Shown: piece after piece, positions 52,101 to 55,100 of the stretch
How the letters are laid out: every line of letters begins with the position of its first letter
Position numbering within the stretch: the first letter of the stretch is position 1
Source: Haliclona indistincta
Lineage: Eukaryota > Porifera > Demospongiae > Haplosclerida > Chalinidae
DNA: 64,000 nt
NCBI GenBank assembly: GCA_964017065.1
Contig: OZ024786.1
Span: forward strand, 1,658,888 to 1,722,887
Direction: 5' to 3'
Made by a program: the position numbers and the translations under genes
Notes under the pieces: generated by a model
Databases searched by the model: none
The model's input: only the letters and a program-made list of their open reading frames with translations
Told to the model about the DNA's origin: nothing

Positions 52101-55100
52101 TAACCAGTACACTAGCATAATGATATTCATACACCCACTGAGGTCGTGAATATCATTAATGATCATGAAGCCTCACAGGTACTAGTCTCGTCCCCAGACC
52201 ACGCCTTCTTCCGCTAAGCTCGAAGTAGGGTCTGGTTGCACGAAGGCCAAATCTTGGGTCAATGACGTTTCATTCTCTGAATCTGGGAATACCAATCAGA
52301 TTACAGTATTTTAATAAATTCACATGACTTGCACGCGCGGCCGCGCCTACCTTCACTACTACCTCCCACTAAACATGGCTTACTCCAAGAGTGTTATTCT
52401 ATCGTCCATAGTCAAGAGCGCTGAACAGCTAGGCTACTCATGTTTGTCGCCCGAACAGCAAGAAGTGGTTGTCAATTTTGTGTCTGGGCGTGATGTGTTT
52501 GTCTCTCTCCCGACGGGTGCCGGAAAGTCTCTCTGTTATCTTCTTCTACCTTTCACCTTTAATCTTCTTCGTAACAGTAATTCTAGTATAGTTATAGTCG
52601 TTTCGCCTTTAAAGAGTTTAATGGAGGATCAAGTAGCCAAGGCATCTGGGCTTGGCCTTAAATGCGTGTACCTCAGCCAAGGGGATAGATGCAATGATGA
52701 GTTAGTACAGGCTGTGCTTGCTGGTGAATACCAGATCATTTTTCTTAGCCCAGAAGTTCTCTTAACTGAGCTGAGGTGGAGAGAAATGCTTAGGAAGGAA
52801 GTTTATCAGAATAACTTAGTTGGGGTCATAGTAGATGAAGCGCATTGTGTTGAAACATGGTAACTATAATAGATTTTGCACATGTAATGTTACACATTAC
52901 GCATATACTCACAGGGGAGAAAGGTTTTGTGTTGAGTTTGCTAACATAAGTGAAGTTCGTTCCCTTATTCCTAAATCCACCAGGATAATGGCTCTGACAG
53001 CAACAGCTACGGTAACAATGAGGCGAGTTATATTATCTACCCTTGATATGAATGGCTGCTACTTAGTGATACGAGATCCTAACAAAATTAATATCAAGTA
53101 TAGTGTACTCAAGCAGGGATGCTTTGATGATATAATTCTACCAATAGTCGATGACCTAAGTTCAAATGGTATTAGAACGATCATATTTTGTAGAACTTAT
53201 GTGGATACTCTAGAAGTATTTAAGGGTCTTGTATGCTGTCTCGGTAGACGGGATGCCTTATATGCTCCTCCATCAGATTGCATCCCCATGAATAAACTTA
53301 GAATGTGTGAAAAATATGATGGCTCTACAGCAACTGACAATCAACAACATATTTTTAAGTCATTTACTCAAGTTGATGGTGTAGTGAGAGTTGTTGTTGC
53401 CACCATCGCTTTTGGGATGGGCCTAGATAGCCCAAATGTGCGCAAGATTATTCATTGGGGTGCACCAGACAAGATTGTGATGTATGTTCAGGAAACAGGA
53501 AGAGGAGGAAGAGATGGAAAGCTATGCAATGCTGAATTATATTACAAAAGGCTAACGTGCAGTGGTACAATGAAAGATTATTGTAAGAATTCATCTAAAT
53601 GTAGAAGGGAAGTGCTTATGGCAGTTTTCACCGACAATTCGGAGATTGCCAAGCCATCACCTCTCCATGCGTGTTGTGATATCTGTGCCAACCAATGTAC
53701 TTGTGTTGATTGCAAGACAACAGAGAGTATTCCTGAAGAGCTTGTCCCTGAACTTGTCAGTTTTGATGCTGACCATGACACTAGTATTCTACATGTTCAA
53801 CACAGGCTTCACAAGCAGCTTCTAAATATGTCCCGATGAAACTTCCAGGCGAAGAAAACTCTTTAGCTGATCGCTCATCACTCTTCTACCACTATTAGGA
53901 AGCAGAGATTCTCCACAGACATAGCAAGACTCTGCCATACTCAATATTTCGCGCAGCTTTCCCGCGGAGAAATTAGAATTCACATGTGATTGTGCGCGTG
54001 ACAATTACGTCATTGACCCAAGATTTGGCCTTCGTGCAACCAGACCCTACTTCGAGCTTAGCGGAAGAAGGCGTGGTCTGGGGACGAGACTACACAGGTA
54101 CGTGCTTTATGTTGAGGCGGGTCAATCATCATGAATAATCAATTAACTCATGTGTGACAAGTAGGCTGAGCATCTGTACTTCAAACGCACTATGAATATC
54201 ATTAACATAGCCTGCTATGGGCATACAGAGAAGTCAGGACAAACAACCCAAGTGTCTAGCTGCCTCACAAAGATGCAAAAACTGCCTCACAGAGGCTAGG
54301 AGGACTTGTGCACTAAGCAGTGTCTAGCAGCCTCACAGAGGGTCACTGGTAGAGCCAGGACACCTGTGCACTAAACAGTGTCTTACACACGGTGCAATGC
54401 AAGTCCGCACACAGGAGTACTGACTGTGCCTCCCACAGCAAGTGTGGGCAGTCCCACCTGAACCTCTAGTGGTCAGTGAGACACAGCCAGTAGAAACCTC
54501 CCACCACCGAAGCGGACGCTCGCACTCACTCGAGCCAGACACCATCAGCCATACCTCACATACCATTTCAATAAATGTTTGCAGTTATCAACATTAGATC
54601 ATCCATTGCACTTCCTACTGGCCGTGCAACACTAGAACACATCTTAATATGGGCATAGTCTAAGGCCTCTTCTAAATCAATTTCGTCTCAAACCAAAATT
54701 AGACTCGAAATCCTTTTATGTGGAGCTTCACTAATAATGCATTGACCTCGGAACTCATTAAAAATCAAAATAGAAAACTGTTGGTTCTACTGAGGGGGGC
54801 ATTTCATGGTCTTCATAGCAACAAGTCAACAAATCAAGGTGACATTTTAATGAAAAGGTGGAGCATTACGTAAAACAGGTTTCAAAAGGTCGGTTCACTA
54901 AAAACCTCAAGGGCTGAAAGATACAATATGTACATGTACATCTAACCACTTAAAGTAAATACATGGTCATGGAGTAAGACTAGGGCTGTGTGCTCAGGGT
55001 TAAAAATTAACGTGAGTGAGTGAGTGTGAGTGAGTGGATGAGAGAGTGAGTGAGTGAGCGAGTGGATGAGTGAGTGAGTGAGTGAGTGAGTGAGCGAGTG

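Follow-up and report, generated by a model that had tools for sequence, protein, structure and literature searches.

A probable deletion derivative with a helicase gene, from an AcademH-like transposon of the sponge Haliclona indistincta

The element in the window and its helicase gene

The window analyzed here is a stretch of 64,000 nucleotides of the sponge Haliclona indistincta (assembly GCA_964017065.1, contig OZ024786.1, positions 1,658,888 to 1,722,887), and it contains a transposable element with a RecQ-like helicase gene at 52183-54092 (1910 bp). Positions are window coordinates unless a contig prefix (C3, C5, C10, etc.) is given. The element is bounded by terminal inverted repeats (TIRs) of 86 nt each, which are 100% complementary. 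The left TIR (52183..52268, plus strand) starts with TAGTCTCGTCCCC and lies on the helicase side, and the right TIR (54007..54092, minus strand) lies on the transposase side. In addition, the 9-bp direct repeat CACAGGTAC was found at both flanks (52174..52182 and 54093..54101) as a target site duplication (TSD). These ends agree with a preliminary description of the locus, which had reported perfect 86-bp TIRs and a 9-bp TSD.

The helicase gene has two exons on the plus strand, and its frame (52375-53839) encodes 469 amino acids. By gene model and Pfam, exon 1 (52375..52859) contains TGAGKS and DEAH, which we take to be motif I and the DEAH box, respectively. It is followed by a GT-AG intron (52860..52914), and the same intron yields a frame of 539 amino acids in the full-length copy L012. 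Exon 2 occupies 52915..53839 including the stop codon. Pfam matched the protein to DEAD (3.7e-24) and Helicase_C (4e-14), with RecQ_Zn_bind under the cut-off, and the NCBIfam model recQ_fam (TIGR00614) gave a score of 233.7 against a cut-off of 219.8. The preliminary description had called this helicase intact. It is indeed spliced and of the RecQ family, but it is incomplete, because the two-exon full-length protein has 539 residues, of which the last 68 were cut off by a deletion in the window copy.

Exon 2 is homologous to the full-length helicase through window residue 465, and the last four residues of the frame (NMSR) are sequence past the deletion junction. This junction (53823..53824, with a 2-bp TA overlap) marks a 3.4-kb internal deletion and corresponds to positions 1662/5104 of L012 (5373 bp). 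On its other side, a remnant of exon 1 of a DUF6589 transposase gene, about 116 coding bp, lies on the minus strand at 53823..53938 with its start codon at 53938; these coordinates are inferred from the L012 gene model and the junction map. The deletion thus took away nearly the whole transposase gene, and the helicase gene is the sole intact gene of the window element, as the preliminary description had it.

Copies in the genome and the partner gene

To count the copies, the genome (144 Mb, 46 contigs) was searched with 108 bases and with a 30-base TIR pattern; in the first TIR search, 40 of 200 candidates were scored. The pattern gave 61 matches, 47 of them with at most two mismatches, and 40 of these 47 pair up as the two ends of 20 copies (L009-L017, L020-L027, L047, L048, and the window copy). 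The remaining seven are one end of L037, the outer end of a composite element described below, and five single ends. Meanwhile, the 14 matches with three mismatches were taken as related families and left out of the count. All 20 copies start with TAGTCTC and finish with GAGACTA, and this sharing of ends is far beyond chance. Exact TSDs flank 18 of the 20 copies, with a length of 9 bp in 11 and of 8 bp in seven, and two copies have none. Furthermore, L017 is inserted in a host repeat, and its flanks, joined with a single TSD, align without a break with further copies of that repeat. This amounts to a paralogous empty site; five of the matches are 100% identical over 131 bases, only 21 of which are left of the junction. 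For the window copy, a search with its own flanks for an empty site returned just those two flanks. Thus, the window element is a real multi-copy transposon with TIRs and TSDs. It was recently active, judging from the presence of identical copies at four different sites.

Longer versions with a transposase gene, which the preliminary description had advised looking for, were also present. L012 and L017 are 5.37 kb long, have TIRs identical to those of the window copy, and contain two convergent genes, one for the 539-amino-acid helicase and the other for a DUF6589 protein (962 amino acids from seven exons, by gene model). DUF6589 (PF20231) is a family of unknown function in Pfam, and no paper in the collection searched mentions DUF6589. 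Its homologue P0121, which is 59-60% identical to the protein of the full-length copy, has a predicted fold nearest to the DDE transposases of Hermes and the P element. That structure was predicted with an alignment of 52 rows (52 of 120 listed proteins), and an alignment-free prediction reached a predicted local distance difference test (pLDDT) score of 34. The homologue search found two proteins with a single sequence and 136 with an alignment, of which 120 were listed. In the Pfam scans, DUF6589 was found on two of four transposase-gene frames (E up to 1), the others giving only sub-threshold matches, and it was the only family found on P0121 (E up to 0.01); the MULE transposase domain gave no match in these scans. 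A sequence profile search against solved structures gave two matches (best E 0.093) and nothing useful. The structural support suggests that DUF6589 is a DDE-type transposase.

Five helicase/DUF6589 pairs from other sources (P0002/P0121, P0007/P0204, P0012/P0191, P0020/P0193, and P0037/P0190) report matching longest-contig values (5616, 1977707, 5239, 4080, and 592997, respectively). This suggests that the two genes share a contig elsewhere too, in other genomes and in metagenomes.

The preliminary description had presented a TIR transposon with a helicase as its only gene, and such an element might be a type of transposon that works with the helicase alone. The window copy and the identical L009, L015, and L016 are recent and have no other intact gene, as would be expected if the helicase drove movement by itself, with no DDE transposase. 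However, the same ends bound full-length copies with a second gene, for whose homologue a DDE-transposase-like fold is predicted, and thus a type of this kind is not supported. As a rule, TIRs with TSDs of 8-9 bp signal a DDE transposase, and here they point the same way. In addition, copies with a broken helicase are also found at several sites. We therefore regard a self-sufficient helicase transposon as very improbable.

The origin of the helicase was examined with a tree of 29 rows, comprising 27 of 120 listed homologues, the window copy, and L012. The 15 transposon-type helicases, including the last two, were split with 100/100 support from 14 rows that were labelled canonical RecQ/BLM in the analysis. 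Furthermore, in the H. indistincta genome a 377-amino-acid helicase query gave 109 matches and a 401-amino-acid transposase query gave 129, many of them convergent neighbours. For one family, all 15 helicase matches (residues 3-270, 31% identity) have a transposase match at most 0.4 kb away, and L045 of that family has 54-bp TIRs starting with TAGCCTCG and the 9-bp TSD TGAAGCGAT. The named relatives of both proteins include those from the sponges Ephydatia and Amphimedon, and for the partner additionally from Halichondria. The paired families and the split in the tree together indicate a two-gene transposon lineage rather than a captured host gene.

A single capture of a host RecQ gene by a miniature inverted-repeat transposable element (MITE) would fit a coding capacity of a lone helicase with an intron, and the tree includes no RecQ gene of the sponge's own genome. 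However, the same helicase-transposase pair in other families of this genome and the separation of these helicases from the RecQ/BLM-labelled rows make such a capture hardly credible. Likewise, a single-copy host gene was ruled out by the copy number and the tree. Another candidate, a host fusion suggested by a frame of 2031 amino acids round a helicase at C6:11.366 Mb, turned out to be just a stretch of N.

Internal deletions and the fate of the helicase

The junction of the window copy is common to 12 of the 20 copies. We found five other junctions in six copies, namely 1530/4915 (L011), 1684/4989 (L014), 1443/4930 (L020 and L047), 1521/5172 (L025), and 2167/5121 (L048), given as L012 positions. 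At the junctions there are either short overlaps or small numbers of filler bases, which, going by what is established for DNA transposons, is what faulty gap repair would leave. L048 (C10:493995-497258) has an 8-bp TSD and the complete 539-amino-acid helicase frame, and its transposase gene is gone.

The helicase frame is kept in seven of the 20 copies. Four of them (the window copy, L009, L015, and L016) have 469 amino acids and are mutually identical, and the other three (L012, L017, and L048) have 539. In 12 copies the frame is broken, and in L025, which has no acceptor motif and a 5-base insertion in exon 1, it could not be read. Relative to L012, the 19 other copies contain 62 distinct coding changes, of which 44 are missense, three nonsense, and 15 silent; the count covers element positions up to 1640, or less where the homologous part is shorter. 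Given the transition bias seen in these data, 43.2, 2.0, and 16.8 changes would be expected without selection (fractions 0.697, 0.032, and 0.271). The counts match neutrality, and selection on the helicase among the copies, as had been suggested from the conserved motifs, was therefore rejected. Two in-frame 9-bp deletions had hinted that the frame was being kept. This idea was also rejected because other copies have frame-breaking insertions or deletions. For example, a 2-base insertion is common to L013, L024, and L026, and two frameshifts are common to L010 and L022. The copies of these two groups occupy different sites with different TSDs, and thus copies with a broken frame were mobilized.

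Between element families, four loci compared with L012 gave proportions of differences of 0.78-0.81 at silent sites (pS), which are saturated, and of 0.40-0.48 at nonsynonymous sites (pN). A pN below the saturated pS indicates long-term constraint on the helicase in the full-length lineages, as far as four loci with saturated silent sites can serve as a control. Thus, the motif conservation in the window helicase is inherited, and its intact frame, in our best explanation, reflects the recent burst of four identical copies and not selection.

In every one of the six junction types, the helicase side is left with 1443-2167 bp and the other side with 202-459 bp. Under uniform breakpoints a single event would have a chance of 0.0975 of meeting these bounds, and the chance drops to 9e-4 if three events were independent and to 9e-7 if all six were; the bounds were chosen after the data had been seen, and nested junctions may stand for only three independent events. 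One might suppose that the helicase side is kept far more than random breakpoints would give because helicase-side DNA, or the helicase before its decay, favours mobilization. If so, helicase and transposase functions would be split between separate elements. We consider this unlikely, since neutral substitutions speak against a benefit of the helicase protein.

A related explanation is that the derivatives keep the helicase since it helps, either by being fed back to the system or because long helicase-side DNA is needed in cis. The skewed junctions and the complete helicase of L048 would fit it. However, besides the neutral changes, 12 of the 20 frames are broken, with L025, which has no acceptor motif, as a thirteenth case, broken versions were amplified, the junctions may be nested, and the related element L053, 564 bp long with a 9-bp TSD, is too short for a helicase. 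On balance this explanation also seems quite improbable.

L053 (C3:11560422-11560985, TSD TCAAATAAC) and L054 (C4:7004089-7004652) are both MITE-like elements of 564 bp with related ends (TAGTCTCGTCCCCAGACCA).

Relationship with known transposons and possible mechanism

AcademH, of the Academ superfamily, has TIRs and a DDE transposase as defining features. It is said, by the title of a 2020 paper by Kojima (Mob DNA 11:15), to occur in animals and fungi. Here, the window copy has perfect TIRs, the full-length copies encode a DDE-type transposase, by the predicted fold of its homologue, and the helicase gene is present. By gene content and TSD description only, we would file the full-length element as AcademH-like, and the window family resembles a new family of an already known kind of transposon. 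The window copy differs from AcademH in being without its transposase. In addition, PMC10045372, in its passages on these groups, gives the TSD as 9 or 10 bp for AcademH and 3 or 4 bp for AcademX, and ties the difference to the helicase of the one and the nuclease of the other. The TSDs found here, 9 or 8 bp, agree only in part with those of AcademH, and our assignment is tentative. AcademX, although of the same superfamily, does not fit TSDs of 8-9 bp.

KolobokH is a RecQ-bearing Kolobok, from fungi only as reported in the relevant part of PMC9587614, where the Kolobok TSD is TTAA. It is similar to our full-length element in having a RecQ helicase beside a DDE transposase. However, 18 of the 20 copies here have varied TSDs of 8-9 bp in place of TTAA. 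Helitrons are also eukaryotic transposons with a helicase; they encode a rolling-circle Rep/Pif1-type protein and have neither TIRs nor TSDs. The present element differs from them in its 86-bp TIRs, its TSD, and its RecQ-family helicase.

Taken together, the window element very probably derives by internal deletion from a cut-and-paste DNA transposon of the AcademH type; it would be nonautonomous and presumably mobilized in trans. The observations behind this reading are the ends shared with L012 and L017, the loss of the inner genes at 1662/5104 that brings transposase exon 1 up against helicase exon 2, the TSDs, the occurrence at several sites, the paralogous empty site, the neutral helicase changes, and, for the partner gene, the transposase-like predicted fold of its homologue. 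The transposase, and with it the helicase, of full-length copies would act in trans on the intact TIRs of the derivative, which would be cut out and joined to a staggered cut of 8-9 bp in the target. Repair of this cut by the host would produce the TSD. As for the deletion, its most likely cause is a gap that was repaired faultily following excision. In the autonomous element the helicase probably aids transposition or repair, perhaps in end processing or gap repair; in the derivative it would be a passenger that is not needed in cis.

The claimed new transposon type thereby gives way to an ordinary dependent copy. Meanwhile, a sponge genome now offers an AcademH-like family that includes full-length copies as well as near-identical derivatives and an empty site, and its helicase and transposase pair could serve to study the role of the helicase in the transposition of AcademH.

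Some copies have unusual surroundings. Three of them lie close to the end of a different element whose TIR starts similarly; L013 and L017 are directly beside such an end and L016 is near one. In addition, L017 and L025 occupy an identical position within one host repeat. These flanks may reflect a target preference.

The 13.3-kb composite element (L019 and L047, C5:13673099-13686363) is bounded by TIRs and has the 8-bp TSD AGAATCAG. It consists of an L020-like derivative, 10.26 kb of adjoining DNA, about 55-60 filler bases, and a short transposase-side end. The 10.26 kb, which include a frame like that of a long terminal repeat (LTR) retrotransposon, are 99.9-100% identical to the region of L020, L055, and L056 (C5:12694413-12706985), 1 Mb away and inverted. 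It looks like flanking DNA was captured and then transposed as one unit.

In addition, at least three different short elements have inserted at TIR positions of about 47-60, where three small insertions resembling footprints are also found, all within a span of about 13 bases. These insertions affect eight of the 21 copies inspected (L020, L047, L048, L027, L037, L024, L025, and L026). No other insertions or deletions were found in the 41 TIRs inspected (one end of L037 is missing), and this span is possibly an insertion hot spot inside the transposon end.
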